In this document: positions 14,691 through 36,653 of the stretch, piece by piece
Layout: every line of letters starts with the position of its first letter
How positions within the stretch are numbered: position 1 is the first letter of the stretch
DNA from: Thiogranum sp.
Lineage (GTDB): Bacteria; Pseudomonadota; Gammaproteobacteria; DSM-19610
Assembly: GCA_030148805.1 (NCBI GenBank)
Contig: JASBSS010000038.1
Span: 1-64,000 of the forward strand
Length of the DNA: 64,000 nucleotides
Direction of reading: 5' to 3'
Translations under genes and position numbers: made by a program
Notes under the pieces: generated by a model
What the model saw: the letters and a program-made list of their open reading frames with translations, nothing else
The model's database searches: none
Told to the model about the DNA's origin: nothing

Positions 14691-17600
14691 ACCCGCCGGG
14701 CTTCCAGTTCGCGCCACAGCCGGTCGAGTCGCTGGGGCGAGACTTTTTCCGCCGTGCCCAGCGACTGGGCGAACAGCGAGACCCGCAGCTCCTCGATCAA
14801 CCAGCGAAAGCGCTGCAGTTGCGCGCTGTCATCCAGGCGCGCCTGCGCGTCGCGGTACCGGTCCCAGTAGCGCTCCACCAGCAGCGCGCGCTGCCGGTCG
14901 CGCGCCGGATCGGCGACGGCCTGCTCCAGGCGCGATCGGGCCGCCTGAAGATAGCGCGCCAGATGCGGCAACCAGGCCGCCGGGGTGGCGCTGAGAAAGC
15001 CCGGGTACACCAGCGCTTCAAGCTGTTGCTGCACCTGGGCGGTCACCGCCAGCAGCCGCAGGTCGCCCAGGTCTTTCAGCGCCCGTCGGGTCTGGTGATA
15101 AGCCTGCAGCGTCTGCCGACTCAAGGCGCCGATACGCACCGCTTCGGCCAGCAGTCGCGTGCGAGCGTCTTGCAGACAAAGCTGGAACGACTCCGCGTCC
15201 CGGATGGCCGCGCCCGCAGACGGAGCGGCCGCCAGCAGGGCCGCCGTCTCGAGATCTTCGCGTAGCGCGTCGGCGGCGCCCACGGTGCTGAACCAAAGCG
15301 CTTGCTGATCGAAATCTGCGACGGCGCGGCGCACGTCGCGCAGCGGCGCGGCGAGCTGGCGCCGCAACAAGGCCAACACACCCTCGCAGTGCGCGGCTCG
15401 GGCCTGATCGGCGCGTTCGAACAACCGCAAATCGATACGCTTGTCCTGCCGCGCCAGAGCCGGATAGGCCCGCACCAGCACTCCCTGGCGACGAAACTCC
15501 AGAGACTCCGGCAAGACCGCGAAGTCCCATTCCCGCACATCCTCGCGCTCGAAATCACTGTCGGTGATGGCGGCAAACCCCTGTTGTGCATGCGCGGCGA
15601 ACTGCGCCTGCAGCCGCTCCAGGTCGCGCCCCCTGGCCAGGGTGCCGCCCTTGTTGTCCACGACCTCGAACACGGGCGACAGGTGGGCCGCCAATTGTTC
15701 GGTCCGCCAGGCATCCGCCGGCACTTCGACGCCGGTCATGCGCTGCAATTGAGCGGCCAGGAAGGTACTCAACCTGCCGCTGGGCGGATCCACGGCGGCC
15801 TGCAGACAGGCCGCGGCGAAATCCGGCGCCGGCACAAAATGCCGGCGCAACGGCTTGGGCAGCGACTTGATCAGGGCGACGCTCTTTTCCTGATACAGGC
15901 CGGGCACCAGCCAATCGAAATCCGCCGCCGCCACCTGGTTGAGCGCCGCTACCGGGATGCGCACGCAGACACCATCGCACTCGCCGCCGGGCTCGAAACG
16001 ATACACCAGCGGCAACTGCAAACCGCGCAGCGACAGCGTATCGGGAAACGCTCCGGCGCTGACGGCGCTGGCGTCGTGTTGTTGTACCTGCTCGGCCCGC
16101 AGATGAAGCCAGTCCGGCTGTTCCTGACGCCGCTGCCGCCACCAGCGCCGGAAGCTGCTCCGCCCCGTGACCGACTCGGGAACCCGCTGGTCGAAGAACT
16201 CAAATAAACGCTGTTCGTCGACGATCAGATCGCGGCGACGCGATTTCGCCTCGAGTCGCTCGAGCCGCTGCAACAAGGCCCGGTTGTGGGCGACGAAAGG
16301 CTCGCGCTCGTCCCATTCGCCCAACACCAGCGCGTGACGGATGAACAGCTGGCGCGAGGTCACCGGATCGACGCCGGCATAGTCGCACTTGCGGCGCTGG
16401 ACCAACGCCAGCCCGTAGAGCGTAACACTTTCGAACGCTACCACCGCGGCGCGGCGCTTCTCCCAGTGCGGCTCGGCGTAATGGCGTTTGACCAGGTGTC
16501 CGGCCAAGGGCTCCACCCAGCCCGGCTCGATGGCGGCGACGGTGCGCAGGTAACGACGACCGGTCTCCACCTGTTCGGCCGCGACCAGCCAGCGCGGACG
16601 TTTCTTGCCCAGACCCGAACCCGGAAAAAGCTTGAACCTCAGGTTGCGTGCGCCCAGATATTCGTCCTTTTCCTCGTGCATGGCGAGGTGACCGAGCAGG
16701 CCGGTGAGTAACGCCTGATGGATGGCTTCATAGCCGGCGGGCTCGGCGTTGCTCCTCAGGCCCAGGGCGTGGGCCTGATCCTGCAACTGGCGATGGATGT
16801 CACGCCACTCGCGCATGCGTGTCCAGGAGAGAAAGTGCTCCCGGCACCAGCGGCGTAATTTTTTCTGCGACAGATGGCGGGCCTGCTCGCCAAACACGCG
16901 CCACAGATTGAGGTGGCTGAGAAAGTCGGAACGCTCATCCCGAAACAGGGCGTGCTTTTGATCCGCGCTCTGGCGCTGCTCCAGGGGCCGGTCGCGCGGA
17001 TCGGCGCTCTCCAGGACAGCGACGATAACCAGCACCTCGCGCAGGGCGCCCAGCTCGTGGGCCGCCAACAACATCCGCGCCAGTCGCGGGTCGACCGGCA
17101 GGCGCGCGATACGCAGGCCCAGCGGCGTGGGGCGGGCCTGTGCGTCGAGGGCCCCCAACTCCTGCAGCAGTCGGTAGCCGGCGCGAATGAAGCGCGCGTC
17201 CGGCGGCTCGACAAAGGGAAAATCCTCGATCCCGCCCAGGCCCTGCGCGGCCATCTGCAGGATCACCGCAGCGAGGTTGGTACGCTGGATTTCCGCGCTG
17301 GTGAAGGCCGGGCGCGCCTGATAATCCGCCTCGCTGTACAAACGGATGCAGATCCCGGCGGCCACCCGGCCACAGCGCCCCGCGCGTTGATCGGCCGACG
17401 CCTGGGAGATGGCCTCGATGGGCAAACCCTGGACTTTGGTGCGATAGTTGTAACGGCTGATGCGAGCCAGACCGGTATCGATCACATAGCGAATGCCGGG
17501 CACGGTCAGCGAGGTCTCGGCCACATTGGTGGCCAGCACGATACGCCGCCCGCCATGGGTGGCGAACACCGCGTTCTGCTGCGCCGGCGACAGCCGCGCG

Positions 17601-18583
17601 TAGAGCGCGAGGATCTGCGTCTGCGGCAGGGCATGTTTACGCAACAGCTCGGCGGTTTCGCGTATCGAGCGCTCGCCGGGCAAGAACACCAGGATATCCC
17701 CCGGCCCCTCGGCGCTGAGCTCGTCGACCGCCTCCACCACGCCAGCCTCCGGCGATGACGCAGCGGACTCGCCCTCGCCCAGCGGCCGATAGCGGATCTC
17801 CACCGGATAGGTGCGACCGGAAACCTCAATGACTGGCGCATCGCCGAAATGACGCGAAAAGCGCAGGGGATCGATCGTCGCCGACGTGATGATCAGCTTC
17901 AGATCGGGGCGACGGGGTAGCAGACGGTGCACATAGCCGAGCAGGAAGTCGATGTTCAGGCTGCGCTCGTGGGCTTCGTCGACGATCAACGTATCGTACT
18001 CGCGCAGCTCCGGATCCGACTGGATTTCGGCCAGCAGCATGCCGTCGGTCATCACCTTGATGTAACTGCCGTCGCGCACCCGGTCCTGGAATCGCACCTT
18101 GAAACCGACTTGCTGGCCGAGATCGCAGCGCAGCTCCTCGGCCATGCGCGCCGCGAGGCTGCGCGCGGCCAGGCGGCGCGGCTGGGTATGGGCGATCTTG
18201 CCGCGGACACCGCGCCCCAGTTGCAGGCACAGTTTCGGCAATTGGGTGGTTTTGCCTGAACCGGTCTCGCCGCAGACCACGACCACCGGATGCGCGGCCA
18301 ACGCGGCCAGAATCTCTTCGCGTCGCTCGACCACCGGCAGGGGCTGGGCAAAGCTCACCGCCGGCAGGCCACTGCGGCGTTGGGCCACACGTTGTTGCGA
18401 GGCCTCCAGCTCTGCGCGCAGCCGCCTCAGCCCGCGGTCTATCGGTTGACTGCGCCGCAGCCGTCGCTGCACATGCCGCAGCTGCCGGTGCAGCCCCGGC
18501 ACGTCGCGCGCCAGACAATGCGCCAGGGACTGCTCCAGTTGCGCCAGGCAGGCGGCATCCGCTCCTGAATCACGCTGTGTCAT
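14678..18583 (-). CDS. hrpA: ATP-dependent RNA helicase HrpA
   Basis: A 1301-aa DEAH-box helicase. Walker A is GETGSGKTT (105-113), followed by DEAH in [14 protein letters not shown] and the QRAGRCGRV arginine-finger motif. A helicase-associated region and the long HrpA-specific C-terminal domain follow. E. coli HrpA is about 1300 aa. It acts on mRNA and rescues stalled or collided ribosomes. I start it at the in-frame ATG at 18583 (MTQRDSG) rather than 10 codons upstream. Confidence 0.97.
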
Positions 18584-18716
18584 GCAAAATTCCGCCGCCG
18601 CGAACCGAAACACCCTATTCTACACCGCCGGGCCGAAACGCTCAGGGAACAAGCGGGCGAGCCTACAAGTCTTATACTTAGTGATCGACCCAGATGCTGC
18701 CACCCAAGGAGTGACA

Positions 18717-19193
18717 ATGAAGACAGAAATCCCCCGACGACGCCTTCTCCAGTGGCTCGGCGCCACCACCGGCCTGGCACTGGCCACGCCCCGCGCCGGG
18801 GCGCAGAGCAAGGATCCGGACCTGTTCGGCGAGCCGGCCCATAAACTGGTGTATCAGTTCAACCAGGCCGATGAGGATTACATGGAGCACGTCCTGTTTT
18901 CCGTCGGGGCCATGCTGCGCAAATACAGCGACAACATCCATCTGGTGGTCACCGCCATCGGCCCGGGACTGCACATTCTGGGCAAGCAGCCGGGACGGCC
19001 GGTGCCCAAGATCATCCGCCAGCGTGTCTCCAGCCTGGCGGCCTACGGCGTGAGCTTCCACGCCTGCGGAAATACCATGAAATCGCTCGGCTGGGAGACC
19101 TCGGATCTGCTCGATTTTGCCGAGGTCGTGGAAATCGGCGCCGATGATCTCATGCTGCTCCAGGAACAGGGTTACAGCTATATCAGCTGGTAA
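18717..19193 (+). CDS. Tat-exported DsrE/F-like protein
   Basis: A 158-aa protein with a twin-arginine signal (PRRRLLQWLG at 5-14, ending ATPRAGA near 28) and a DsrE/DsrF-like domain: HKLVYQFNQ, then GAMLRKYSDNIHLVVTAIGPG, then a cysteine in SFHACGNTM. DsrE-fold proteins handle sulfur relay or bind ligands; exported versions are seen near sulfur-oxidation genes. ATG 18717 has AAGGAGT 4 nt upstream. Two cytochrome c genes follow on the same strand behind their own promoter. Confidence 0.8.
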   Translation: MKTEIPRRRLLQWLGATTGLALATPRAGAQSKDPDLFGEPAHKLVYQFNQADEDYMEHVLFSVGAMLRKYSDNIHLVVTAIGPGLHILGKQPGRPVPKIIRQRVSSLAAYGVSFHACGNTMKSLGWETSDLLDFAEVVEIGADDLMLLQEQGYSYISW

Positions 19194-19197
19194 GCTC

Positions 19198-19206
19198 TGG
19201 TATAAT
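19198..19206 (+). promoter_or_regulatory. Extended -10 promoter of the cytochrome pair
   Basis: TGG-TATAAT immediately after the DsrE-like gene, with no good -35, the pattern of an extended -10 promoter. The leader would be about 90 nt. Confidence 0.5.
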
Positions 19207-19301
19207 GCCGCCGATCCGGCGCAAGAAAACTTCAAAGCACCTGCCGGGAACGTTGCGCGGCAACACACAGACTGTAGACACCAAAGACGAGAGTGAGGAC
19301 T

Positions 19302-19637
19302 ATGAAAGTAAACTATCTACCTTGCCTGGCGCTGTTGGCCGCCAGCACCCTGCCGGCGAGCGGATGGGCCGCCGGCGACGCGGCCGCCGGCAAGACTAAG
19401 GCCTTTACCTGCATGGGTTGCCACGGCATTCCCGACTACAACAATGTCTATCCGACCTACCACGTGCCCAAGCTGGGCGGTCAGCACGCCGAGTATATCG
19501 TCGCCGCGCTGCAGGAATACGCCAAGGGCCAGCGCAAGCACGGCACCATGCAGGCGCAGGCCAAGGCGTTGAGCGAACAGGACATGCAGGATATCGCCGC
19601 TTATTTCGCCGCCGACGGCCGCGAGGGAGGGAACTGA
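19302..19637 (+). CDS. Single-haem class I cytochrome c
   Basis: A 111-aa periplasmic cytochrome with a signal peptide (cleavage after GWAA near 24), haem site CMGCH and a likely axial methionine in GTMQAQ. ATG 19302 has GAGTGAGGA upstream. It is followed after 1 bp by another single-haem cytochrome, and together they resemble the two halves of a dihaem cytochrome c4. Role: electron carrier between the bc1 complex or a dehydrogenase and an oxidase. Confidence 0.9.
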   Translation: MKVNYLPCLALLAASTLPASGWAAGDAAAGKTKAFTCMGCHGIPDYNNVYPTYHVPKLGGQHAEYIVAALQEYAKGQRKHGTMQAQAKALSEQDMQDIAAYFAADGREGGN

Positions 19638-19638
19638 T

Positions 19639-19989
19639 ATGAACAGTCTCAAGCAATGGCTCGTGGTGAGCGCGATTTCCGTCCTCAGTCTGTCCGCGCA
19701 CGCCGGTGGCGATGCCGAGGCCGGCAAGAAGATAGCCAGCCAGACCTGCCAGGCCTGTCACGGCGCCGACGGCAACAGCACCAATGCGCAATACCCCACC
19801 CTCGCCGGACAGCACGCGGACTATCTGGTGCACGCGCTGAAAGCCTACAAAAACGGCGATCGCAAGAACCCGATCATGTCAGGGTTCGCCGCCAGCCTGT
19901 CGGTCGCCGACATGGAAAACGTCGCCGCCTGGTTCGCCAGCCAGAAAGGGCTCACGTCGCCGAGATTGCCAAATACCGTCAACAAATAG
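19639..19989 (+). CDS. Single-haem class I cytochrome c (c553/c4-half type)
   Basis: A 116-aa periplasmic cytochrome with a signal peptide ending near SAHA (21), haem site CQACHG and the block NPIMSGFAASL containing the axial methionine. It has GAGGGAGGGAA before its ATG and only 1 bp separates it from the preceding cytochrome stop, so the two are translationally linked. Both share the AGxHAxYxVxALxxYxxG pattern and probably arose by duplication. Confidence 0.92.
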   Translation: MNSLKQWLVVSAISVLSLSAHAGGDAEAGKKIASQTCQACHGADGNSTNAQYPTLAGQHADYLVHALKAYKNGDRKNPIMSGFAASLSVADMENVAAWFASQKGLTSPRLPNTVNK

Positions 19990-19995
19990 ACGCTT

Positions 19996-20025
19996 GAGCG
20001 GATGCCCGGGCAGGGCATCCCGCTC
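19996..20025 (+). terminator. GC-rich hairpin after the cytochrome genes
   Basis: GAGCG-GATGCCC pairs with GGGCATC-CGCTC with one bulged C. No T-run follows directly; it may act with the AT-rich hairpin 10 bp downstream. Confidence 0.45.
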
Positions 20026-20034
20026 GCCCGGCGG

Positions 20035-20071
20035 AAAAAATGACAAAAAATGGACTTCTTGTCATTTTTTT
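20035..20071 (+). terminator. AT-rich terminator between cytochromes and MerR-like gene
   Basis: A 12-bp stem AAAAAATGACAA/TTGTCATTTTTT with a 12-nt loop, ending in seven T. The leading A-run makes it able to work in both directions. TTGACT and a short repeat CTTTG-GAT-CAAAG (20077-20089) follow at once and may belong to the promoter of the MerR-like gene. Confidence 0.65.
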
Positions 20072-20132
20072 CTTGACTTTGGATCAAAGCCTGCGACACT
20101 TGTGCCAGTCACCCAGGCACAGGGCAGGCGTG

Positions 20133-20582
20133 ATGCAAAGCGGTTTCACTCGCCAACAGGCCAGCACTCTTAGCGGGCTCAGTTGTCGCCAGCTCGATTA
20201 TTGGCGCAAAACCGGCCTGGTCTCCCCCCAGCACCAGACCGCCGGCGGGCACAGCCGCTACGGCTTTGTCGACCTGGTGGTGCTGCGCGCGGCCAAGCGC
20301 CTGCTCGATGCCGATATCTCCCTGCAGCGCATTCGCAAATGCCTGCAATCCCTGATGCGCTTTCTTCCGGCCAGCGAACATCCGCTGGCCGAGCTGTCGC
20401 TGGTGGTCACCGGTGACGTGGTACTGGTCTTTCACGGCGAACGCGCCTTCGACGCGCTCACCGGTCAGGAATGGGTCTTTCCGATCGCCGAACTGGCAGC
20501 GGAAGTTGAGAAACTGCAGCAGCCACAGCCGCGACAGGGCGAGCTGTTCGTCGCTGAAAAGAAGCTGGGAGTACGCGCCTGA
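20133..20582 (+). CDS. MerR-like DNA-binding protein, first gene of the ParA-fusion cluster
   Basis: A 149-aa protein whose first 70 residues form a MerR-type winged helix (LSGLSCRQLDYWRKTGLVSP, then the wing with GGHSRYGFVDL). The C-terminal part has a short beta region (LSLVVTGDVVLVF, GQEWVFPI) ending in a helix with LAAEVEKLQ. It lacks the cysteine pattern of metal sensors. About 97 bp separate it from the ParA fusion on the same strand. It may regulate the cluster or be its DNA-anchoring partner; ParA systems sometimes use HTH proteins in place of ParB. Start ATG 20133 has AGG 5 nt upstream. Confidence 0.75.
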   Translation: MQSGFTRQQASTLSGLSCRQLDYWRKTGLVSPQHQTAGGHSRYGFVDLVVLRAAKRLLDADISLQRIRKCLQSLMRFLPASEHPLAELSLVVTGDVVLVFHGERAFDALTGQEWVFPIAELAAEVEKLQQPQPRQGELFVAEKKLGVRA

Positions 20583-20679
20583 TCCAATAACAGCAACACA
20601 GGCATGATGGTGAAGCGTCGACGCGCACCGTATTGGTCGCAATCGTATGCACAAGGCTGCAACGACGGGGAGACTGAAT

Positions 20680-21795
20680 ATGCACATCATTGCCATCGCC
20701 AATCAGAAAGGTGGCTGCGGGAAAACCACCACTGCCATCAACCTGGCCGCGGAGCTGGGACGACAGCGACAACGCGTTTTGTTGATCGATATGGATCCCC
20801 AGGCGCATGCGTCCCTGGGGCTGGGGATCAAAGCACATTGTCAACAGGGATTGTACGAGGTTTTCAATCACGAGCTGTCGCTCGCGCAAACGATCCTGCC
20901 CCAGGTGATCGAAGGCGTGGATCTGGTTGCGGCGACGGTGACCCTGGCGGCCGTGGAACCGTTGCTCGGCGATCAGCCAGGACGCGAACGACAATTACTG
21001 GAGCATCTGGAGCCGCTAAAGGACCATTATGATCAGATTCTCATCGACTGCCCGCCGTCGCTGGGCCTGCTCTCGATCAACGCACTGAGATGCGCCACCC
21101 GGATTCTCACGCCGCTGGACGCCGGATTCTTCTCCCTGGAGGGGGTCCACCAACTGCGCGCCCTGGTCGGCTTGCTGGAAGAGAAATACGCCCTGCACCT
21201 GCCGATGGAAATCCTGCTCACCCAGTTCGACGGCCATACCCGACTGGCGCAGACGCTGCTCGAGCAGGTTCGTCAGCAGTTTCCGCAGCTGCTTCACCGT
21301 GTACGGATTCGGCCGACCGTACGCGCCCGCGAGGCCGTTTATTTCGGCAAACCGCTATGTCAGTACGCGCCGCAGAGCACCGCCGCCAGCGACTATCGCC
21401 GTCTGGCCGCAACGATGCTTGCCGACGCGCAACACCGCCCGAGCGTGGCGCCGCGAGCCCCAACCCGTTCCGCTCTGGAAAACGACAGTGAGGACAACAG
21501 CATGAGCCTAAGCCGCGAAAAGGCCCTCCGACAGATGGTCGTACTGACGTTCAACGACATCGAATGCAGTCGTCTGCAACTGGCCGGCGACTTCAACGAC
21601 TGGGTGCCGGATCAGAATGTGGAAACGCGCAAGCTCAACGGTCGCTGGCAGAAGGTTTTCACCGCCGAGCCCGGCGTCTATGAATACCGGCTGCTGGTGG
21701 ACGGCAAATGGCAGGCGGACCCCACCAATCCGTATGAAATCCCCAATGACCTGGGCGGCATCAACTCCCTTCTACAGGTACCGGCACAACTCTAA
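20680..21795 (+). CDS. ParA/MinD-type ATPase fused to a glycogen-binding (AMPK1/CBM48-like) domain
   Basis: A 371-aa fusion. Residues 1-250 are a ParA ATPase: deviant Walker A KGGCGKTT (10-17) with the signature lysine, Walker A' LLIDMDP (34-40), Walker B ILIDCPPS (120-127). Residues 251-283 are a polar linker. Residues 284-371 match the glycogen-binding domain of AMPK beta: LAGDFNDWVP (301-310), GVYEYRLLVDGKW (332-344), DPTNPYE, and a terminal INSLLQV. The two tryptophans used for sugar stacking align at W308 and W344. ParA proteins move or distribute cargo on the nucleoid, so a carbohydrate cargo is an attractive inference. Its stop overlaps the next start (TAATG). Start 20680 has GGGGAG upstream. 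Confidence 0.85.
   Translation: MHIIAIANQKGGCGKTTTAINLAAELGRQRQRVLLIDMDPQAHASLGLGIKAHCQQGLYEVFNHELSLAQTILPQVIEGVDLVAATVTLAAVEPLLGDQPGRERQLLEHLEPLKDHYDQILIDCPPSLGLLSINALRCATRILTPLDAGFFSLEGVHQLRALVGLLEEKYALHLPMEILLTQFDGHTRLAQTLLEQVRQQFPQLLHRVRIRPTVRAREAVYFGKPLCQYAPQSTAASDYRRLAATMLADAQHRPSVAPRAPTRSALENDSEDNSMSLSREKALRQMVVLTFNDIECSRLQLAGDFNDWVPDQNVETRKLNGRWQKVFTAEPGVYEYRLLVDGKWQADPTNPYEIPNDLGGINSLLQVPAQL
21490..21504 (+). promoter_or_regulatory. Internal ribosome binding site and in-frame ATG before the CBM domain
   Basis: GAGGA (21490-21494), 7 nt, then ATG 21502, in frame, at codon 275 exactly at the linker/CBM junction. Initiation here would give a free 97-aa glycogen-binding protein. Confidence 0.5.
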
Positions 21796-22475
21796 TGACC
21801 AGTCAGCTAAACCCCGCCTGGCAACGCAGGCCGCTTTCCTCCAATCACCTGGCAGAAATCAGTGCCCGCTTTCTCAGTAGCGAAGCGCGTCCGGCACCGG
21901 CCGCTGAACGCTGCCAGGTGATTTCTTTTTTGCTCGAAGACGAGCGCCAGGAGGAAGTGGTGCGGGAGTTGGCGCACGCGCTGGCGCAGCAGGGACAAGC
22001 CTGCCGCTGGCGACGCCTCGGGCCGGCACGCACGACTACGGCCGACCCGACATCGGCCGCAGACGCCAACACGCTCCACCTGGTGACGACCACCTCGGTG
22101 ACCGACTGCCTGGCGCAACCCGCCGACCCTGTCGTGGTGCTGGTCCCCGCCAGCCTGTCCGGCCTCAGAAATGCCTACCTGCGGATCAAACAACTGAGTG
22201 CCTTCCATTGTCCGGATGTTGCCGTATTGCTGCTGGGGCCGCGCGATCAACACGCCGCCTGGCGCTATTTCCGTAAACTGGCGGTGGGTACGCTGCGCTT
22301 TTTGGACATCCCGCTGCTGAATTTGGGTTTTCTGCCGGCGACGGACCCTGCGGGGCAGACAACGCCTGAACAGCGCCGCCAACTCCTGGGCCGCGTCGGC
22401 GCCCGCCTACTGCGCAGCGGCTGCCATCGCCGCTATACTGGGCCCGGGACAACAGGCGACCGGCAGGCATCATGA
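21795..22475 (+). CDS. Degenerate MinD/FlhG-like protein without P-loop
   Basis: A 226-aa protein. The C-terminal half follows the FlhG/MinD pattern: a helix LRNAYLRIKQLSA, a strand VAVLLLGPRD where functional members have the NMV loop, then YFRKLAVGTLRFLDIPLLNLGFLP. The first 60 residues contain no Walker A lysine loop; the expected position reads VISFLLEDERQEE. It is therefore likely a pseudo-ATPase partner rather than an enzyme. Its ATG overlaps the stop of the ParA-CBM gene and its end overlaps the next start (ATGA), so the three are co-translated. Confidence 0.6.
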   Translation: MTSQLNPAWQRRPLSSNHLAEISARFLSSEARPAPAAERCQVISFLLEDERQEEVVRELAHALAQQGQACRWRRLGPARTTTADPTSAADANTLHLVTTTSVTDCLAQPADPVVVLVPASLSGLRNAYLRIKQLSAFHCPDVAVLLLGPRDQHAAWRYFRKLAVGTLRFLDIPLLNLGFLPATDPAGQTTPEQRRQLLGRVGARLLRSGCHRRYTGPGTTGDRQAS

Positions 22476-23062
22476 GACTGAACATCCAGGCGGTAGAGGA
22501 CTGCGATCCCGAAGCCCTGCGCGCGCTCCTGATCGATGCCGCCGACGATCTGGTGGGCACAGACCACTGTCTGCTCGAATCCCAGCTACCCTGGGACGGC
22601 CATCCGATCCTGCTCGCCGACGCCGAGGCGCACCCGGTTCTGATCAGTTTCGACCTGGCCAACAGCCAGGCCGCCCTGCTCAACGGCCTGCACGCCAGCG
22701 ACCAGTTGAGCGCGGCGTTACCCTGGGTGAACCAGGTCTACACCGGATTGCGCCAGTTGGAGAAGAAGCCCCGCCTGGTGGTGGTCACCAGCGAACCTCC
22801 ACCGGGGTATCAGGCGGTACTGACAGGGGATCAGAGTCTTTCGTTGTTTCTCTGCCGCGTGTTGCGGGTCAACGACGAGACCGGTGTGCTGCTGGAGCGC
22901 CTAACGCACAGCGACTTGGCTAGCCAAGCTACGCCGCCATCCGGCGTTCAGGCCGGCAACCGCCCCGTCCCCTTGACGATCGCCCCGGAGAGTTCTCCCG
23001 CTTCAGACCCTCCCGAGCCCGCCCTGAGCGAACAGGAAGCCCATTACTTCCAGCAACTCTGA
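22472..23062 (+). CDS. Uncharacterised protein of the ParA-fusion cluster
   Basis: A 196-aa protein that I do not recognise with confidence. Residues 1-145 are predicted folded with alternating strands and helices (HPILLADAEAHPVLISFD, then a tryptophan helix, then RLVVVTSEPPPGYQ and a hydrophobic helix LSLFLCRVL). That order recalls PD-(D/E)XK-like cores, but the catalytic E-x-K is not evident, so this is only a fold suggestion. The last 50 residues are proline/serine-rich and end QEAHYFQQL, possibly an interaction peptide. ATGA overlap with the preceding gene. Confidence 0.55.
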   Translation: MRLNIQAVEDCDPEALRALLIDAADDLVGTDHCLLESQLPWDGHPILLADAEAHPVLISFDLANSQAALLNGLHASDQLSAALPWVNQVYTGLRQLEKKPRLVVVTSEPPPGYQAVLTGDQSLSLFLCRVLRVNDETGVLLERLTHSDLASQATPPSGVQAGNRPVPLTIAPESSPASDPPEPALSEQEAHYFQQL

Positions 23063-23132
23063 CTTTCCGGGCCAGACCAGGGCGCCTGCCCCTCCGGGCG
23101 CCGACGGTGCGCGTGGACCGGGAGCGAGGAAT

Positions 23133-23165
23133 GATTCCCATCCGTTTCCCAGTGGGATGGGAATC
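23133..23165. terminator. Hairpin between convergent transcripts
   Basis: A perfect 11-bp stem GATTCCCATCC/GGATGGGAATC with an 11-nt loop, between the end of the ParA-fusion cluster and a small gene on the other strand. It has no T-run. Confidence 0.45.
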
Positions 23166-23192
23166 AGCACCCTGGTTCCGGCCTAGCGTACG

Positions 23193-23291
23193 TCATGCGG
23201 TCGCGTATAACGACGCCACAAACGCTACCCAGGCAATGGATACTACGAACAAAGCGGCGATCCGGCGTTGAAACTGCTGAACTTGGGTCAT
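23193..23291 (-). CDS. Small 32-aa single-pass membrane protein
   Basis: A short open frame with an excellent ribosome site (AGGAGG, 5 nt before ATG on the minus strand). It encodes MTQVQQFQRR followed by a single hydrophobic helix (IAALFVVSIAWVAFVASLY) and a short end. The basic N-terminal segment would stay in the cytoplasm. It is too small for usual gene callers. No partner is adjacent on its strand; the following hairpin could end its transcript. I assign no function. Confidence 0.5.
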   Translation of the reverse strand: MTQVQQFQRRIAALFVVSIAWVAFVASLYATA

Positions 23292-23526
23292 CACTGCCTC
23301 CTGGTGTTATCTGCTGACTCTCTCCGGGCCCAACGGTGTCGCAATATCCCGGCAACGCGGAAAATTGCGCCAAAAACCCCAACCTAATACTTTCTAACCC
23401 AGGCAAAATTTCAATGCAAACAATGATTACGCGAGAGGTCGAATTGTGTCTGGAATTGGCGACAGTCTGGCCAAAAATTACTCAAAACCCCTTCCCCGCC
23501 CGCAAACGGGGCGCCCTCCGACCAAA
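23292..23526. other. Intergenic stretch upstream of the sigma-54-type promoter
   Basis: About 230 bp with no coding sequence I can support. It is AT-richer than its neighbours and could hold upstream activator or IHF sites for the promoter at 23527; I do not recognise one. Confidence 0.4.
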
Positions 23527-23543
23527 TTGGCACAACCTATGCA
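23527..23543 (+). promoter_or_regulatory. Sigma-54-type (-24/-12) promoter
   Basis: TTGGCACAACCTATGCA has the obligatory GG (23529-23530) and GC (23541-23542) separated by exactly 10 nt, with the consensus TGGCAC at -24. Transcription would start about 40 nt before the start codon at 23598. Confidence 0.6.
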
Positions 23544-23597
23544 GGTGAATTAGCGAGCTAGGCGCTGTCTTCCACCCGCCTTACCTGAGGAGGAAAC

Positions 23598-23822
23598 ATG
23601 AAGCCCATCGCATTGCAACTGGTCACCGTCTGCCTGGAAAACGGCCGCCAGGGGATTTTTGTCGGCGTTCCCCTGGTCTCTCCGGAAACCCCTTCAGACC
23701 AGGGCCAGATCGAGGATATCTGGTTCTCGGACGTGCAGGAGGTGCCGGCACAACTGGTGCTCAAGGATCTGGTGCGCCTGTTGCAGGCGCAGCTGTGCCG
23801 CTGCGAAACCCCGCTGCAATAA
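23598..23822 (+). CDS. Hypothetical 74-aa protein
   Basis: A short protein with a strong ribosome site (GAGGAGGAAAC before the ATG). The sequence alternates strands and a C-terminal helix (LVLKDLVRLLQAQL) and ends with a CRCETPLQ tail holding two of its three cysteines. I do not recognise the family. The upstream sigma-54-like promoter suggests expression under a specific activator, for example nitrogen or carbon signals. A gene for another small unknown protein follows 93 bp later. Confidence 0.6.
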   Translation: MKPIALQLVTVCLENGRQGIFVGVPLVSPETPSDQGQIEDIWFSDVQEVPAQLVLKDLVRLLQAQLCRCETPLQ

Positions 23823-23915
23823 TCTGCACGCTCCGCGGTTTTGCCCCGTCCGGGCCAGGCATCGGGAAAATCCCGGCGCGCTCAGCTACACTAAGCGCAA
23901 ACCGAGGATCCCGAT

Positions 23916-24227
23916 ATGTCCACAACTGAAAAGAACATGCCCAAGTGGGATGTCGCACTGGCGTCGTTGGCGGGCGACGAGTTCCGCAGAAAAGGCGAGG
24001 CGCTGCAACTGGGAGACTTTCATCGCCTGGCGACCCAGCATGCCATCCGGCTCGATGACATCATGGAAACCATGTTCCTGCTGGCCATTCATGGTCAGTG
24101 GACCTATACCGACCGCGACGGCTCCCCGCAGACACTCAGTCAGGACACGCTGGACAACCTGTACGTCAAGCGCCGGCTGTCGGAAGAGGATCTGCGAGCC
24201 TTCGACGGCGGCTGGCAGCCGGCCTGA
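23916..24227 (+). CDS. Hypothetical 103-aa protein
   Basis: A small, mainly helical, soluble protein, with blocks GEALQLGDFHRLA, RLDDIMETMFLLAIHG and LSEEDLRAF. I considered TusE/DsrC because of size and helical pattern, but the C-terminal cysteine arm of that family is missing. Function unknown. Its stop is 2 bp from the stop of the convergent LysR gene. Confidence 0.5.
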   Translation: MSTTEKNMPKWDVALASLAGDEFRRKGEALQLGDFHRLATQHAIRLDDIMETMFLLAIHGQWTYTDRDGSPQTLSQDTLDNLYVKRRLSEEDLRAFDGGWQPA

Positions 24228-24229
24228 AC

Positions 24230-25090
24230 TCAACCGGACGCCGATCCGGCGATTTCGGTAGCCAGTTCGCGCAAACCGTGTAAGGCCTGGCGTTGGACTT
24301 CACTGTCGGCTTCGCGGGGAAACACCATATAGGCAGGATGGGTGAATTCCGGTCCGTTCCTCACCCGATGAATCTGGCCGGCGTCGATGAACGGTTGCGC
24401 CATGCGGATCGGCAGGAAGCAGGAGCCACCGTTGGCGAGGATCAGCTGCACCCCCAACCAACCGATATTGACCACCTGCGGCGGCCGTGACAGGTCCGGA
24501 AAGCTCTCCCGGTGCTTGGCATAGAAACCGGGGCCCCATTCCACGTAGATGTAGTTCTCGTCCGGCCACTGCGTCTTGGGATTCGAGCTGACCATCACCA
24601 GGGTCTCGTCGAACAGATGCTCCACCACCAGGCCGGGCGCGTGGCTGGGGGTGTACATCAGGCAGATGTCCAGCGTGCCTTCGACCAGGCGGCGCATCAG
24701 ATCCTCCTCGAACCCGATTTCACTGCGAATGGAGACATCCGGCGCGGCCGCGCGCATCCAGCCAACCCAGCGCGGCAAGAATCCTTCCCACAGCGCGATC
24801 CGACCGCCGATACGGACACTGGCACGATAACGACTGGGCAACCCGACGTCGTGGCGCGCCTGTTCCACCGTCAACACCAGGGTCTTGGCGTGCTGTAGAA
24901 ACCGTCGCCCCGCCGGCGTGAGCGTGGCCCCCGCTCGGTTGCGCACAAACAGCCGCGCGCCGAGATCCGCCTCCAGGTGCTGGATGCGAGCGCTGACCGT
25001 GGACTGGGTCACGTGCAAACGGTTGGACGCCTCGAGAAAACTCCCGTGGGCGGCGATCGCTAGAAAGGTCCGTGCCTGCTCAATGTCCAT
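24230..25090 (-). CDS. LysR-family transcriptional regulator
   Basis: A 286-aa regulator starting MDIEQARTFLAIAAHGSF, with the HTH in residues 18-38 (ASNRLHVTQSTVSARIQHLE) and the periplasmic-binding-like effector domain after about 90. The start at 25090 matches the family; an upstream in-frame extension does not. It is divergent from the HPP/CBS gene pair, and the shared intergenic region contains an ATC-N9-GAT operator, so it probably controls that pair. The ligand is unknown. Confidence 0.9.
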   Translation of the reverse strand: MDIEQARTFLAIAAHGSFLEASNRLHVTQSTVSARIQHLEADLGARLFVRNRAGATLTPAGRRFLQHAKTLVLTVEQARHDVGLPSRYRASVRIGGRIALWEGFLPRWVGWMRAAAPDVSIRSEIGFEEDLMRRLVEGTLDICLMYTPSHAPGLVVEHLFDETLVMVSSNPKTQWPDENYIYVEWGPGFYAKHRESFPDLSRPPQVVNIGWLGVQLILANGGSCFLPIRMAQPFIDAGQIHRVRNGPEFTHPAYMVFPREADSEVQRQALHGLRELATEIAGSASG

Positions 25091-25112
25091 AATGGGGCAA
25101 CGTGCTCGATAA

Positions 25113-25129
25113 TATCGGACGTAGCGATA
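25113..25129. promoter_or_regulatory. LysR-type operator
   Basis: TATCG-N7-CGATA, containing ATC-N9-GAT, the classic LysR recognition-site form. It lies 23 bp from the regulator start codon and upstream of the HPP gene. Flanking CGATAAT copies are in direct repeat. Confidence 0.55.
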
Positions 25130-25332
25130 ATAACATGCAATATATATCGTTTGTCTATAATTCGTACGCCCCATTATGATGCAACTTCTTATTCAGCTCA
25201 GGAGAATCCGGTGGCCGCCAACGCGACTCCTTTATCCATCCGCCAGCACCCCCGCTGTCCCGGCGAGAGACTCGAGGCGCTTGGGGGCAGGCGTTCCTCG
25301 CACGGGCAGCCGGCGCGCGGCTGTGAGTGCCT

Positions 25333-26349
25333 ATGACCCAGCGATCCTGGGGCACGTCCCTGCTCGCCTTCGCCGGTGTGGGCGCCACGCGCAGCGGCCA
25401 TCTGGAGAAATGGGTGTCGGGCGCCGGCGGTTTCTTTGGCATCCTCGGCATCGTACTGGTCAGTCAGGCGACCCTGGGCTTTGGCGCCGCCACCGGGCTG
25501 GTGGCGTCGATGGGTGCCTCGGCGGTGTTGTTGTTCGCCGTCCCCCACGGCCCTTTGTCGCAACCCTGGCCGGTCTTTGGCGGTCACATGGTTTCCGCTT
25601 TCATCGGGGTCACCTGCGTCAAGCTGATTCCGCAATCGTTGTTATGCGATGCGGTGGCCGTGGGGACGGCCATCGGGGCCATGTACTACCTACGCTGCAC
25701 CCACCCGCCGGGTGGAGCCACGGCCTTGACCGCCGCGGCCGGCGGCGACGCGCTGCACTCGCTCGGCTACCAGTATCTGATCACGCCGGTGCTGCTCAAT
25801 GTTCTGGTCATCCTGCTGGTGGCGATCCTGTTCAACTACCCCTTCCGCTGGCGCCGCTACCCGGCGGCGTGGGCGCGCGGCAACGCGGTGGCGGAGGCAC
25901 CGCAGGCGAGCGCCGAGTTGTATTCCCGGGAGGAACTCACCCGCGCCATCCTGGCGGCGAACCCTTCACTGTCACAACAGGAAAAGGAAGTGCACGACAT
26001 CTGCCGGCTGGCGCGCACCCAGCCTTCAGATACCCCCGTCAGCGCGCAACACATCAAGCTCAATGCCTGCTATTCCAATGGTGAGTTCGGCGACCTTTGG
26101 CAGGTCAGAAAAGTCACCGGCGACGCATCGGCCGGCCCAGCGGCAGGCGAGGACCGCGTGACTTATCGGGTGGTGGCCGGCCGTGACCGCCGCGCGCAGG
26201 GAACGCTCAGTCGCGAAGCGTTCGCGAGATGGGCCCGCTACGAGGTCACCCTGCATGAAAATGCCTGGCGACGTGTGCAACCAGCACCTCCCGCCGACGG
26301 CGACGCCAGCGGGGTTTCGCGGCTTCCCACCCAGCGGAGGATCTCATGA
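25333..26349 (+). CDS. HPP-family integral membrane protein
   Basis: A 338-aa protein with about four membrane helices in the first 180 residues and the HPP signature THPPGGATALTA near 121-132, preceded by GASAVLLFAVPHGPLSQP. The C-terminal 150 residues are soluble. Some HPP proteins have been linked to nitrite transport; in most bacteria the role is untested. The gene starts at ATG 25333 (a GTG lies two codons upstream). It overlaps the next gene by ATGA, so transporter-like and CBS proteins are made together. Confidence 0.85.
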   Translation: MTQRSWGTSLLAFAGVGATRSGHLEKWVSGAGGFFGILGIVLVSQATLGFGAATGLVASMGASAVLLFAVPHGPLSQPWPVFGGHMVSAFIGVTCVKLIPQSLLCDAVAVGTAIGAMYYLRCTHPPGGATALTAAAGGDALHSLGYQYLITPVLLNVLVILLVAILFNYPFRWRRYPAAWARGNAVAEAPQASAELYSREELTRAILAANPSLSQQEKEVHDICRLARTQPSDTPVSAQHIKLNACYSNGEFGDLWQVRKVTGDASAGPAAGEDRVTYRVVAGRDRRAQGTLSREAFARWARYEVTLHENAWRRVQPAPPADGDASGVSRLPTQRRIS

Positions 26350-26975
26350 ACGATTCACGGCCCGGCAGGCGCCCGCAGCGGTCGGACTTCGAGCAGGCGC
26401 TGCGCAGCATGGATACCTATATCGATATCACCGTGGACGATCTGATGGCGCTGACCCGGCGCGCCGAGCAGATCGCCGAGCGTCACCACACCGAAGGTAT
26501 CAGCGTTAGCCAGATCATGACGCAGCCGGTACAAAGTGTTCGCCCGAGCACCCCCTTGCACGAGGCCGCACACCGGATGGTCAGCGGGCGCATCAGCGGA
26601 CTGCCGGTGGTCGATGAGGCCGGTCGGCTCAGCGGCATCATCACCGAAGCCGACTTTCTCCGCGCCCTGGGCATCCCGAGTTCCCAGCCGAATCACACGC
26701 TGTGGCAGACACTGGAAACCCTGTTCACCCATCTGCGCCATCATGGTGCGCTGGAAGCGCCGGACGATCCGGTCTCCTCCCACATGGCCAGTCATGTCGT
26801 GTGCGTCGGCCCGGAGGCGGATCTCCACGACGTGCTTCAGGCGATGCGCCAGCACCGGGTCAAGCGTCTGGTGGTATGCGACCGCGAGCGAAAAGTACTG
26901 GGTATGGTCACACGCTCCGATCTGGTCCGCCTGTTCTTTGATAACTATACCAAGCCCACGAACGCCGCGGACTGA
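26346..26975 (+). CDS. CBS-domain-pair protein
   Basis: A 209-aa protein with two CBS motifs: VSQIMTQPVQSVRPSTPL to GIITEADFLRAL, and VSSHMASHVVCV to VLGMVTRSDLVRLFF. Paired CBS domains bind adenosine nucleotides and regulate a partner. The ATGA overlap with the HPP gene makes the membrane protein the likely partner. The N-terminal 50 residues include a helix with MALTRRAEQIAERHH. Confidence 0.88.
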   Translation: MNDSRPGRRPQRSDFEQALRSMDTYIDITVDDLMALTRRAEQIAERHHTEGISVSQIMTQPVQSVRPSTPLHEAAHRMVSGRISGLPVVDEAGRLSGIITEADFLRALGIPSSQPNHTLWQTLETLFTHLRHHGALEAPDDPVSSHMASHVVCVGPEADLHDVLQAMRQHRVKRLVVCDRERKVLGMVTRSDLVRLFFDNYTKPTNAAD

Positions 26976-27109
26976 CCCCACCCTTTTGGTGCCTATCTGT
27001 CACGGACCGCCCCAGCGACCCTCCGCCGGCCGGCGGATTCCCGCGGCTGACTGACACGCCTTAAACGATCGGCGGCGACCCCGATCGGCCGCTGGGGTCT
27101 GTTTTGGCT

Positions 27110-33994: not shown

Positions 33995-34044
33995 TGGTAG
34001 CAAGGGGCGGATTCGAACCGCCGACCCCAGCATTATGAGTGCTG
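33995..34044 (-). repeat. attL: displaced 3' part of tRNA-Met
   Basis: A 50-bp block identical to 42118-42167, running from the CCA end to the anticodon stem of tRNA-Met. Beyond 34044 the D-arm and acceptor half are replaced by unrelated sequence, so this copy is not a working tRNA. Confidence 0.9.
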
Positions 34045-34169
34045 ATACCGCTATTTTACCGCCGCTTACTCAGCCTTCCGGAATCTAACTTTCCTATTGT
34101 TTTTACAGTCTATTAGGCTTACTCTCCCTTGCAGGGGTCAGGCCAAAAATTACCCTGACTTACTGTTTC

Positions 34170-34191
34170 CTGCTTACTTGGTGCTTACTTG
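34170..34191 (+). repeat. Arm-type repeat, left end of element
   Basis: Two tandem copies of GCTTACTTGG with an 11-bp period, repeated with one mismatch at the right end (42054-42075). Single GCTTACT copies also occur at 34064 and 34117, and the reverse form AGTAAGC at about 34199. Probable integrase arm-binding sites. Confidence 0.65.
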
Positions 34192-34225
34192 GGACCGAAG
34201 TAAGCAAACGCGAGGAAGCCGAACC

Positions 34226-35512
34226 ATGCCAAAAATCACCAAGCGAACCGTTGGCGCGACCAAGCCGGCCGACAAATCTGTTTTCGTCTGGGATGACGAA
34301 ATCAAGGGATTCGGGCTACAGGTCTTTCCTACCGGGGTTAAGTCGTTTGTTTATCAATACCGCACCCCCGAAGGTCGCACCCGGCGCGGTTCACTCGGTC
34401 AATACAGCGACACGAACACCGCCGAGCAGGCACGCAAGAAAGCGAAAAAGTGGCGGCGAACGGTCGAGGATGGCGGCGACCCGCTGGGCGCGAAACGGGC
34501 CGCACGGGATTCGCTGACAGTTTCCGCCATGCTCGATCTGTGGTGCGAGTCGGCCCGCTTCAAAGAGCGTAGCGAAGCAACCCAGGCGAACGATAAAGGA
34601 CGTGTCGAACGGCACCTTAAGCCAACACTCGGAAAAATCTATCTCCACAAACTGACAGCCGAGGATGTGCGCAAGGCGTTTGCCAAGATCCGCGACGGCA
34701 AGACGGCGGCGAACATCAAGACCGGACCCAGGGGCCGCGCCATTGTGCGAGGCGGCGAAGGGGCGGCGCGTATGGCAATCCGGGTATTGCGGGCCGCGAT
34801 GAACTGGGCGGTTTCCGAAGGGCTGGCGGCGGATAATCCTGCCCAGTCGGTCAAGATCGGTAGCGACCGAACCCGCGACGTGATTCTGGAAAGACCTGAA
34901 CAATATAACTCTCTGTTTCGCACCATCGATCAGATGGAAAATGAGAAACGCCTTGGCGCTGCCGTCGCTGATGCGATCCGCGTTATCGCTCTGACGGGCG
35001 CCCGTCGCGGCGAGATAGCCGGTTTGCGCTGGTGCTACGTCAATCTGAAAAACGGTGTCCTAACGCTGCCACCAAGCGCACACAAGACCGGCAAGGCGAC
35101 AGGCAAGCCACGCATTATCGGACTACCCGCCGCCGCACAAGCCATCATCGCCAAACAGCCAAAAGGCAAACCGGATGGCTATGTGTTTCAGCCGTCGAAG
35201 GGCGAAGGCCCTCTCTCACTCTCAAAGCCTTGGCGGGAGATTCGCAAGGAAGCTCATTTACCAGAGGGGATCGGGTTGCATGGGCTAAGACACAGCCTAG
35301 CCAGCAGCATGGCCATGAACGGCGCACAGGCGGCGGAGATCATGACGGCACTGGGTCACCGGCAGCTTGCCACAGCGCAGAAGTACGTGCATTGGGCGCA
35401 GGATGGTCGCGCAACACTGGCGGAGAAAGCCAGCGCGCATATCACGGGAGCGTTGACCGGCGGCCAGAAAGCCAAGGTTGCGCCGATTAAGAGGCGTCCC
35501 CGTGAGCAATGA
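34226..35512 (+). CDS. Tyrosine recombinase (integrase), DUF4102 type
   Basis: A 428-aa integrase of the P4/CP4-57 group. The N-terminal DUF4102 domain starts MPKITKRTVGATKPADKSV. The catalytic residues are R in TGARRGEIAGL, HxxR in LHGLRHSLAS, H in LGHRQLATA and Y in AQKYVHWAQ. ATG 34226 follows AGGAAG; an earlier in-frame ATG at 34097 would extend across the arm-site repeats. Its location beside attL and the tRNA site fits tRNA-directed integration. Its end overlaps the next gene by 11 bp. Confidence 0.95.
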   Translation: MPKITKRTVGATKPADKSVFVWDDEIKGFGLQVFPTGVKSFVYQYRTPEGRTRRGSLGQYSDTNTAEQARKKAKKWRRTVEDGGDPLGAKRAARDSLTVSAMLDLWCESARFKERSEATQANDKGRVERHLKPTLGKIYLHKLTAEDVRKAFAKIRDGKTAANIKTGPRGRAIVRGGEGAARMAIRVLRAAMNWAVSEGLAADNPAQSVKIGSDRTRDVILERPEQYNSLFRTIDQMENEKRLGAAVADAIRVIALTGARRGEIAGLRWCYVNLKNGVLTLPPSAHKTGKATGKPRIIGLPAAAQAIIAKQPKGKPDGYVFQPSKGEGPLSLSKPWREIRKEAHLPEGIGLHGLRHSLASSMAMNGAQAAEIMTALGHRQLATAQKYVHWAQDGRATLAEKASAHITGALTGGQKAKVAPIKRRPREQ

Positions 35513-36320
35513 GCGCAACGCGCTCGAAGTGCTGTCAAACATAACCGGTTTCGCCGATCAGCCGGACGAGCACCGCACCGCGCTGGTGAAACGCCTGGCC
35601 CAGGTTCTGGACTTGGCAGATGTGCAGCGCAAAGAAAAGGCTTTCAAGCCGCCGCCGGGCATAACACAAACAAACAGGCAGATTGGCCCGCCGTGCACTG
35701 CCCTGGAATGTGTTCGTGACAAGACAGCGCAGATCAACCATGCTGCAGCCGTGAATCGGCCGCTGAGGGAAGGCGACATACCGGGCGCGTCGGCGGATAA
35801 CGCCGAGACCTTCCACGGCGTCGCTGGTGCGCTGTTGGACCATATTGACAGCCTTCAACAAGCGCCCACCAACCAGACTAATCAACTCCGCACAGCCTTG
35901 GACAAGGCCCGCAATCGGATAGAGCAATTGGACAACGCGACTTTCCGCAGAGTCGATAGCGGCCTCACTGAAGACGATATGCTGCAGGCGCCGCGGGAAC
36001 TTGTCACAGTCGTTCACTACCTGGCTGGCGTCTTGCTCAACCACATACAAACCTTGTCAACTGAAGGATCGGCACCCGGCGCGCAGGGCGATTTCACCCG
36101 GTTTCTTGCCAGCGAGCTCAGCTTGATCTACACATACGCCGCACGGACCAAACCAACCAGGCGCACAGATTGGAATAACGGCAAGACCTACGGGCCGTTT
36201 TACGATTTCGTCGCTGGGGTGCTAAAAAAAGCAGACATTCGCAGACCGGGGGCCGACCATATCGTTCGCCTGGCAACAGACCATCAACCGGACCTCCGAC
36301 CCATCCGCATAATCGGCTGA
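35502..36320 (+). CDS. Hypothetical protein of the element
   Basis: A 272-aa protein, starting with GTG 35502 behind AAGAGGCG and overlapping the integrase end. It is mainly helical, with hydrophobic heptads near 115-160 and 195-225 and a C-terminal block RRTDWNNGKTYGPFYDFVAGVL. I do not recognise a family. Position between integrase and regulator is common for satellite-specific accessory genes. Confidence 0.6.
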   Translation: MSNERNALEVLSNITGFADQPDEHRTALVKRLAQVLDLADVQRKEKAFKPPPGITQTNRQIGPPCTALECVRDKTAQINHAAAVNRPLREGDIPGASADNAETFHGVAGALLDHIDSLQQAPTNQTNQLRTALDKARNRIEQLDNATFRRVDSGLTEDDMLQAPRELVTVVHYLAGVLLNHIQTLSTEGSAPGAQGDFTRFLASELSLIYTYAARTKPTRRTDWNNGKTYGPFYDFVAGVLKKADIRRPGADHIVRLATDHQPDLRPIRIIG

Positions 36321-36371
36321 TTCACGCCCAGCTCTCGCAGGGCAAATTCTTGCCCGAATTTCACCATTGGA

Positions 36372-36425
36372 CCTCCGGTTGTCGTGACAGCATGCTGCCT
36401 ATCACGACATTCACACTACCGGAGG
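36372..36425. promoter_or_regulatory. Nested inverted repeat covering the ribosome site of the AlpA-like gene
   Basis: Outer arms CCTCCGGT (36372-36379) and ACCGGAGG (36418-36425), inner arms TGTCGTGA (36380-36387) and TCACGACA (36402-36409), with the palindrome CAGCATGCTG (36388-36397) at the centre. The right outer arm contains the GGAGG of the downstream gene, 6 nt before its ATG. It could be an operator, an RNA switch, or both. Confidence 0.65.
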
Positions 36426-36431
36426 CTACTG

Positions 36432-36653
36432 ATGATAGACCCACACTATATCACCCGTGCCGAGGCTGCCGCCTACCTGACAGAGCGCGGACTCAGAACT
36501 TCAAAAAATACCTTACAGAAATGGGCGGTGACCGGCGGTGGCCCGGTCTATCGTCGATACGGCAATCGCGCTGTCTATACCATCGCCGACCTGAACGCCT
36601 GGGCGGATAAGCGTATGGGCCCCGCGCGCACGTCGACGAGCGGCGCCGCATGA
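36432..36653 (+). CDS. AlpA/MerR-fold helix-turn-helix regulator (excisionase-like)
   Basis: A 73-aa protein with a helix-turn-helix of the AlpA/excisionase type: YITRAEAAAYLTERG, then KNTLQKWAVTGGGPVYRRYG, then AVYTIADLNAWADKR. In P4-like elements such proteins activate or excise the element. Its GGAGG lies within a nested inverted repeat. The stop overlaps the primase start by ATGA, so this regulator and the primase are co-expressed. Confidence 0.85.
   Translation: MIDPHYITRAEAAAYLTERGLRTSKNTLQKWAVTGGGPVYRRYGNRAVYTIADLNAWADKRMGPARTSTSGAA

Follow-up and report, generated by a model that had tools for sequence, protein, structure and literature searches.

ATPases of the ParA/MinD type position chromosomes, the divisome, carboxysomes, flagella and chemotaxis clusters, as a rule via a separate partner protein (available text of PMC10241942). 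A ParB protein is known to activate ParA via an N-terminal motif composed of aliphatic and basic residues (available text of PMC12462528). Glycogen of E. coli is polar, and its inheritance can be unequal (according to the available part of PMC4836754). A 2025 review of organelle positioning covers polyhydroxybutyrate and polyphosphate granules, and the word glycogen is absent from the available part of its text (PMC13052382). In the open-access literature, we found no description of a machinery for sharing out bacterial glycogen. Here we analyse a stretch of 64,000 nt of Thiogranum sp. (contig JASBSS010000038.1, positions 1–64,000, in the following “the window”). It contains a four-gene cluster in which a ParA-type ATPase is fused to a carbohydrate-binding module (CBM) of the AMPK type; the fusion is called ParA~CBM.

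The locus can be compared with several described systems. With ParA/Soj of ParABS it shares the deviant Walker A, A′ and B motifs and the best solved relatives, and it may also have a partner with an N-terminal helix. It differs from ParABS in the covalent C-terminal CBM and in the neighbour, which is a FleN-fold protein and no ParB; profile scans gave no ParB match among the four cluster proteins. As in McdA-McdB, ParC and other cargo-positioning ParA/MinD systems, a dedicated ATPase is encoded beside a probable partner, whereas the carbohydrate-binding domain on the ATPase sets the locus apart from them (compared with the available text of PMC10241942). No microcompartment, chemotaxis or flagellar genes were found among the neighbour proteins scanned. 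The likeliest reading, which we put forward tentatively, is a positioning system of the ParA type in which a sugar-polymer-binding domain is part of the ATPase and the cargo is related to glucans.

A ParA ATPase joined to an AMPK-type domain

The fusion gene (20680–21795, plus strand) was characterized by its reading frame, Pfam matches, relatives and an alignment of the ParA motifs, and encodes 371 amino acids in one frame. Pfam family AAA_31 matches residues 1–171 with an E value of 6.8e-48, and AMPK1_CBM (PF16561) matches residues 288–368 with 35.6 bits at a curated cut-off of 26.8. In the window's genome assembly, PF16561 is matched only once, namely by this domain. Among solved structures, ParA/Soj chains are closest to the N-terminal part and AMPK beta chains to the C-terminal part.

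The deviant Walker A motif reads KGGCGKTTT, and the A′ and Walker B motifs are also intact. The P-loop KGGCGK is present in 31 of 31 fused proteins, versus KGGV in five of five hand-picked unfused ParAs. At the DxRTR site of the ParA alignment, the outgroup rows mostly have R and the rows of the window's family have H. The window's CBM contains both sugar-stacking tryptophans. Among 43 aligned relatives, one of them a duplicate, the first tryptophan is conserved in all 43 and the second in all 42 that are readable. An asparagine is found in 39 of 42 readable relatives, with D in L008 and L013 and Y in L045. These W, W and N positions align to those of AMPK beta, which we take to be its sugar-stacking or sugar-binding residues. 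The window's CBM differs from the AMPK beta domain in being attached to ParA and not in a kinase, and in having an arginine at the position where AMPK has a lysine in the alignment. At the level of sequence, the real join of a complete ParA ATPase and an AMPK-type, glycogen-binding-like domain is confirmed.

ParA~CBM is the second gene of a tight cluster with the order MerR-like gene, ParA~CBM, G3 (degenerate FleN/FlhG fold) and G4 (degenerate NucS fold). A TAATG overlap (21793–21797) joins ParA~CBM to G3, and an ATGA overlap (22472–22475) joins G3 to G4. For comparison with other genomes, the best 80 of 128 matches to ParA~CBM were taken. The full-length fusion was found in 19 of these 80 and, by the criterion used here, the other 61 match the ParA part only; recurrence at full length argues that the fusion is more than chance. 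The nearest named relative among them is a Thiogranum metagenome-assembled genome (MAG) with 84% identity. Fusion carriers are Thiogranum, another proteobacterium (L003), Myxococcota and Deltaproteobacteria, Desulfosudis, Omnitrophota, Latescibacterota, Phycisphaerales and other bacterial MAGs.

L003 and further families of Gammaproteobacteria also have the order MerR, ParA~CBM, G3 and G4, and Myxococcota/delta-type MAGs show it less clearly. In these MAGs, G3 was recognized by profile in seven loci (L004, L005, L006, L007, L009, L010 and L012), four of which have a MerR-like gene (L005, L007, L009 and L012), and weak G4 matches (E values of 0.015 to 0.18) were found in three (L005, L006 and L007). 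In a class sample of 369 gammaproteobacterial genomes, a CBM of the ParA~CBM type, counted at E values below 1e-30, is present in 16 genomes from 10 families. Full-length G3 is present in 14 genomes of the sample. Thirteen of these also have the CBM, and in the fourteenth (G215, L157) the locus ends at a contig end. The other G3-profile matches among the 145 genomes listed are mainly to the C-terminal half, as expected for an ordinary FlhG.

These results agree with a sequence-only reading that preceded the present analysis. It had described one 371-codon frame joining a complete ParA, with all three motifs, to an AMPK1/CBM48-like domain with both tryptophans, and the two gene overlaps, which are exact. 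The scans that it had suggested with ParA and PF16561 profiles gave matches above the Pfam cut-offs for both domains, and the search for the same architecture and gene order in other genomes found both again; two of the outcomes that it had named as speaking against it, a lack of conservation and a lack of CBM48/AMPK1 matches, were not seen. We found no description of a ParA~CBM-type system, which is weak evidence of absence since the search covered open-access PMC only. Likewise, no open-access paper was found that links CBM48/AMPK1_CBM with ParA, or ParA/MinD with glycogen granules, as judged partly by titles and abstracts. From these comparisons of sequences, the four-gene system is conserved; within the open-access literature searched, it is apparently undescribed.

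G3, G4 and the repeated loss of ParA

G3 (21795–22475, plus strand, 226 amino acids) was characterized by profile, model and fold comparison, and has no significant Pfam or NCBIfam match. Its AlphaFold model has a mean predicted local distance difference test (pLDDT) score of 83.6 and a FleN/FlhG fold (compared with 5j1j: Z 17.1, root-mean-square deviation (rmsd) 2.5, 169 aligned residues). The C-terminal half also matches FlhG/FleN by sequence, with an E value of 2e-10. A Walker A motif is absent in 28 of 28 sequences, and therefore G3 was not filed as an FlhG ATPase. G3 resembles FlhG/FleN in its MinD-like fold (Z up to 17.1) and the sequence of the C-terminal half, and it differs in the missing Walker A and in an N-terminal motif of its own, HLAEISARFLS in the window with the consensus xLxxIxxxFLS. 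The Walker-less FleN/FlhG-type fold bears out the earlier view that one of the two overlapping genes encodes a pseudo-ATPase of the MinD/FlhG type.

Six members of the window's family (L107, L115, L119, L123, L124 and L125) have a CBM without ParA between the MerR gene and G3, and MerR, CBM, G3 and G4 are all kept in their genomes. A tree of MerR, CBM, G3 minus its N-terminus, and G4 was read without support values. It places the six ParA-less loci in five places among ParA-bearing relatives, and its outgroups bear ParA, suggesting that the ParA half was lost separately about five times. No ortholog of the fused ParA was found elsewhere in the six genomes. A relocation of ParA was rejected, as the best other ParA is 37–40% identical to the query, compared with 60–84% for the fused relatives. 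Other, more distant ParA-like proteins are present in each of the 16 family genomes searched. A contig artefact is unlikely, because two of these assemblies consist of a single contig each and the remaining cluster genes are present in all six. In a different family, G3 and G4 are present at L158:1559–4329, MerR, ParA and CBM were not found at the locus, and G3 is without the N-terminal motif.

The repeated loss of ParA would be compatible with a chance or passive fusion, i.e. a vertically inherited side product without a function of its own. Lone fusions without partners and the L158 locus without MerR, ParA and CBM point in the same direction. This explanation is nevertheless highly improbable in view of the occurrence in several phyla, the conserved motifs, and the conserved gene order and internal start (see below).

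The presence of the G3 motif was compared between clusters with and without ParA. A strict pattern, which was fixed but drawn after the sequences had been seen, was found in 20 of 21 ParA-bearing clusters of Gammaproteobacteria and L003, versus two of seven clusters without ParA, i.e. the six family genomes and L158 (Fisher p 0.0012, ignoring kinship). In the window's family alone, the fractions are 10/10 with ParA and 2/6 without it (p 0.008, likewise ignoring kinship). When losses of ParA are counted as events, four out of six also lack the motif (L123; L115 with L124; L125; L158). Loss of ParA thus mostly goes together with loss of the G3 motif, which suggests a contact like that of ParB. 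The N-terminal helix of G3 may contact ParA, and G3 is the probable partner of ParA~CBM.

G4 (22472–23062, plus strand, 196 amino acids) was characterized by its AlphaFold model, fold comparison and alignment. It has no significant Pfam or NCBIfam match, and a profile search against PDB sequences was also empty. The fold was recognized from the model only (mean pLDDT 86.0), which is NucS/EndoMS-like (compared with 2vld: Z 10.5, rmsd 2.3, 105 aligned residues); Foldseek alone gave a weaker E value of 3.3e-3. The catalytic motif of PD-(D/E)XK nucleases consists of a D and E-x-K. G4 shares the PD-(D/E)XK-like fold with NucS/EndoMS and differs from it in the absence of E-x-K, which is missing in 19 of 19 rows of an alignment read by eye. 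The first catalytic acid is present only in three Myxococcota/delta-type rows. G3 and G4 look like dead enzymes that may have been kept as scaffolds. G4 ends in a conserved tail, LSxxExxYFQQL (23026–23062), which is preceded by a linker modelled with low confidence. Relatives that lost ParA also keep this tail, and it may be a docking peptide for a partner different from ParA. A tRNA-Ser predicted by ARAGORN over the end of G4 (23014–23101, minus strand) is probably spurious. It was not found there in ten related loci, and therefore it does not explain the conserved tail.

A predicted internal start and a putative operator

An internal ATG (codon 275 of the fused gene) is present twelve codons before the CBM core in all 16 family loci. 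It would be the start of a free CBM of 97 amino acids (21502–21795, plus strand). A Shine-Dalgarno core, GAGG (21490–21493, plus strand), is present at the same distance, –12 to –9, in 10 of 10 fused genes of the family. The linker around GAGG has a mean majority-base frequency of 0.57, and the codon after GAG varies (GAC, GAT, GAA, GGC, GTA), yet GAGG is constant. Within the ParA parts, a similar core precedes 2 of 93 ATGs in any frame. In the whole fused frames, it precedes 15 of 64 internal in-frame ATGs, and ten of these 15 are the internal ATG of the CBM. In the split genes of L124 and L125, the longest CBM frame begins at the internal ATG. L106, L108, L122 and L126 have no ATG at this position, so the internal start looks family-specific (L003, L105 and L117 lie outside this codon-level reading).

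We therefore predict that the fused gene yields free CBM in addition to ParA~CBM, with masses of roughly 11 and 41 kDa as estimated from the numbers of residues. With such an internal start, the ParA half could easily be lost. IncC of plasmid RK2, a ParA made from alternative starts, is also a case of two proteins translated from one parA-type gene, whereas the second product predicted here is a C-terminal CBM without the ATPase (compared with the available text of PMC2666795).

The first gene of the cluster encodes a MerR-like protein of 149 amino acids (20133–20582, plus strand) and is present in 16 of 16 family loci. MerR_1 fits it with an E value of 4.2e-14, in line with its earlier assignment. 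Upstream of the gene, a palindrome, AAAAAATGACAA / TTGTCATTTTTT (20035–20070, with arms at 20035–20046 and 20059–20070, plus strand), directly precedes the TTGACT of a promoter-like site. The site was identified by sequence and conservation and consists of TTGACT (20073–20078), 17 bases and ACACTT (20096–20101, plus strand); a generic promoter scan did not report any site. The palindrome is a putative operator on the basis of its recurrence. The palindrome/promoter pattern was found in 17 of 36 scanned sequences; several of the others come from short loci whose sequence stops close to the MerR gene. The 17 comprise 13 of the 16 family loci, L106, L126, L122 and L003. The pattern is missing in the family loci L115, L121 and L124, and the arms are imperfect in L111, L112, L106 and L126, with no arm of 8 bp or more. 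It is kept in the ParA-less loci L107, L119, L123 and L125.

A conserved palindrome at MerR's own promoter fits an autoregulated operon. The sequence-only reading had proposed the MerR-like protein as DNA anchor or regulator. The role as regulator is strengthened by the palindrome and that of a DNA anchor has become less likely; the protein looks more like an autoregulator. The internal start and the palindrome by the promoter-like site are features beyond that reading.

The conserved palindrome is also compatible with a glucan-sensing regulatory complex in place of a mover, in which CBM, G3 and G4 would act via the MerR-like protein as FleN acts on FleQ, and ParA would be an optional switch. 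The persistence of MerR, CBM, G3 and G4 without ParA in six relatives agrees with such a complex, and so does the fold of G3, which is closest to FleN, a protein that was solved in complex with the regulator FleQ (as given in the entry titles). However, all 31 fused proteins that were examined retain an intact ParA motor with its motifs, a target gene other than the operon itself is not known, and several distant loci have no MerR beside the fusion. On balance, a sensing complex is unlikely; together with a non-glycogen cargo (see below), it is a main rival of the positioning reading.

Cargo and the proposed positioning system

To characterize the possible cargo, we compared the distribution of glycogen genes. 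In the class sample, a strong GT5 glycogen synthase is present in 16 of 16 carriers, versus 194 of the 353 other genomes (p 9.4e-5, ignoring kinship). When each of the ten families is counted once at a base rate of 0.57, p is about 0.004. GT5 is likewise present in all five class genomes whose CBM is lone and matches more weakly, and in a second set GT5 was found in 23 of 24 PF16561 carriers, the exception being G010. Glycogen is a fair guess for the cargo in Gammaproteobacteria, and doubtful as a general rule. Separately, at L118:9615–9917 (G071) a lone AMPK-type CBM gene lies directly beside a glycogen phosphorylase gene, and its product is likely a glycogen-linked relative of the CBM of the fusion.

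The proposed positioning system would operate as follows. ATP-bound ParA~CBM would bind the nucleoid. The CBM, both on ParA and as a free protein, would coat or sense an alpha-glucan body, which in Gammaproteobacteria would probably be glycogen. By analogy with ParB, the N-terminal helix of G3 may touch ParA and thereby trigger ATP hydrolysis. The remainder of G3, a dead FlhG-like body, and G4, a dead nuclease-like protein, may act as a scaffold. The MerR-like protein would bind the palindrome at the promoter and in this way control the operon. As a result, the glucan body would be spaced or anchored. A more specific version, in which ParA drives both the spacing and the inheritance of a glycogen or other alpha-glucan body, one gene yields ParA~CBM and free CBM, and the dead FlhG-like and NucS-like proteins serve as adaptor and scaffold, is possible but doubtful.

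Several observations weigh against positioning by ParA, against the contact with G3, or against glycogen as cargo. ParA is dispensable in six relatives, and because these keep the CBM cluster, the CBM must have a task besides distribution driven by ParA. Three CBM-bearing members of the class sample (G099, G100 and G344) have the fusion and no full-length G3. The motif helix in the G3 model has a low confidence (pLDDT 60–70). L107 and L119, the latter with a close sister, L121, that still bears ParA, keep the motif without ParA, and L140 has ParA and a divergent motif. The strict motif is present in none of the seven Myxococcota/delta-type G3 proteins, all of which are ParA-bearing. Looser versions were found in neighbours of Myxococcota/delta-type, Desulfosudis, Latescibacterota and Phycisphaerales fusions (GLGDVLHYFDP, GLEHISDIFLS, GLKQFARLFLS and DELAELFLT), with modest scores that are equalled by 0.013 to 0.37 of background frames. 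Fusion neighbours of L008 and L013 gave no convincing motif match.

With respect to glycogen, a GT5 match of any strength was found in 12 of the 18 carriers that do not belong to the family, and a strong one (E below 1e-60) in only seven. GT35, CBM48 and GT5 were sought in the genomes of four Myxococcota/delta-type carriers (L005, L006, L007 and L010; 4.4 to 6.6 Mb, completeness not given). GT35 phosphorylases are absent from all four, and so are CBM48 matches other than to the fusion; the one match each in L007 and L010 sits at the fusion's own contig position. GT5 is absent in three of the four, and the L006 genome has a partial match. These four carriers without canonical glycogen genes mean that glycogen is not established family-wide. 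The earlier proposal that the cluster may distribute glycogen granules or another polysaccharide body at cell division is partly supported. It gains from the conserved cluster, the ParA logic with G3 as likely partner, the kept tryptophans and the GT5 co-occurrence in the class. As a general claim it is not supported for glycogen, because these four genomes keep the fusion.

The same four carriers would be in agreement with ParA positioning of a cargo other than glycogen, with a CBM that binds another glycan or a protein, e.g. of a polysaccharide-export or envelope machine. The Omnitrophota locus L008:298–8488 also fits; its fusion lies among genes for an alginate-export-type porin, GH57, Poly_export and Wzz. 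The gene just before this fusion starts with NHLAKVYLN and, by eye, seems to encode a membrane stretch. In contrast, the CBM tryptophans are kept throughout, GT5 co-occurrence is strict in the class sample, and no export gene set is present in the other neighbourhoods whose proteins were scanned, making a non-glycogen cargo rather unlikely.

Additional features of the surroundings were recorded. A defence system was rejected, because PADLOC matches were only marginal (E values of 7e-5 to 0.01) and to P-loop or helix-turn-helix parts. No Rfam family reached the gathering threshold in 17000–27000. Upstream of the cluster (18582–19989), a DsrE-like gene (14/16 family loci) and two small c-type cytochrome genes (12/16) are present, and similar-looking genes lie beside G3 and G4 in L158. 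Downstream (23916–24227), a protein of about 102 amino acids without Pfam match is encoded; 12 of the 16 family loci have it, and its distance from the cluster varies. The region 33995–39394 contains a tRNA-Met (minus strand), a phage-type-integrase-like frame at 34097 and a 914-amino-acid frame at 36650, identified by reading only, and is perhaps a mobile element.

The repeated loss of ParA, with decay of the motif in the neighbouring protein, provides natural mutants for testing the contribution of the ATPase. If positioning by ParA~CBM is true, the ParA positioning logic would be wired in a new way, with the domain that binds the sugar polymer built into the ATPase.

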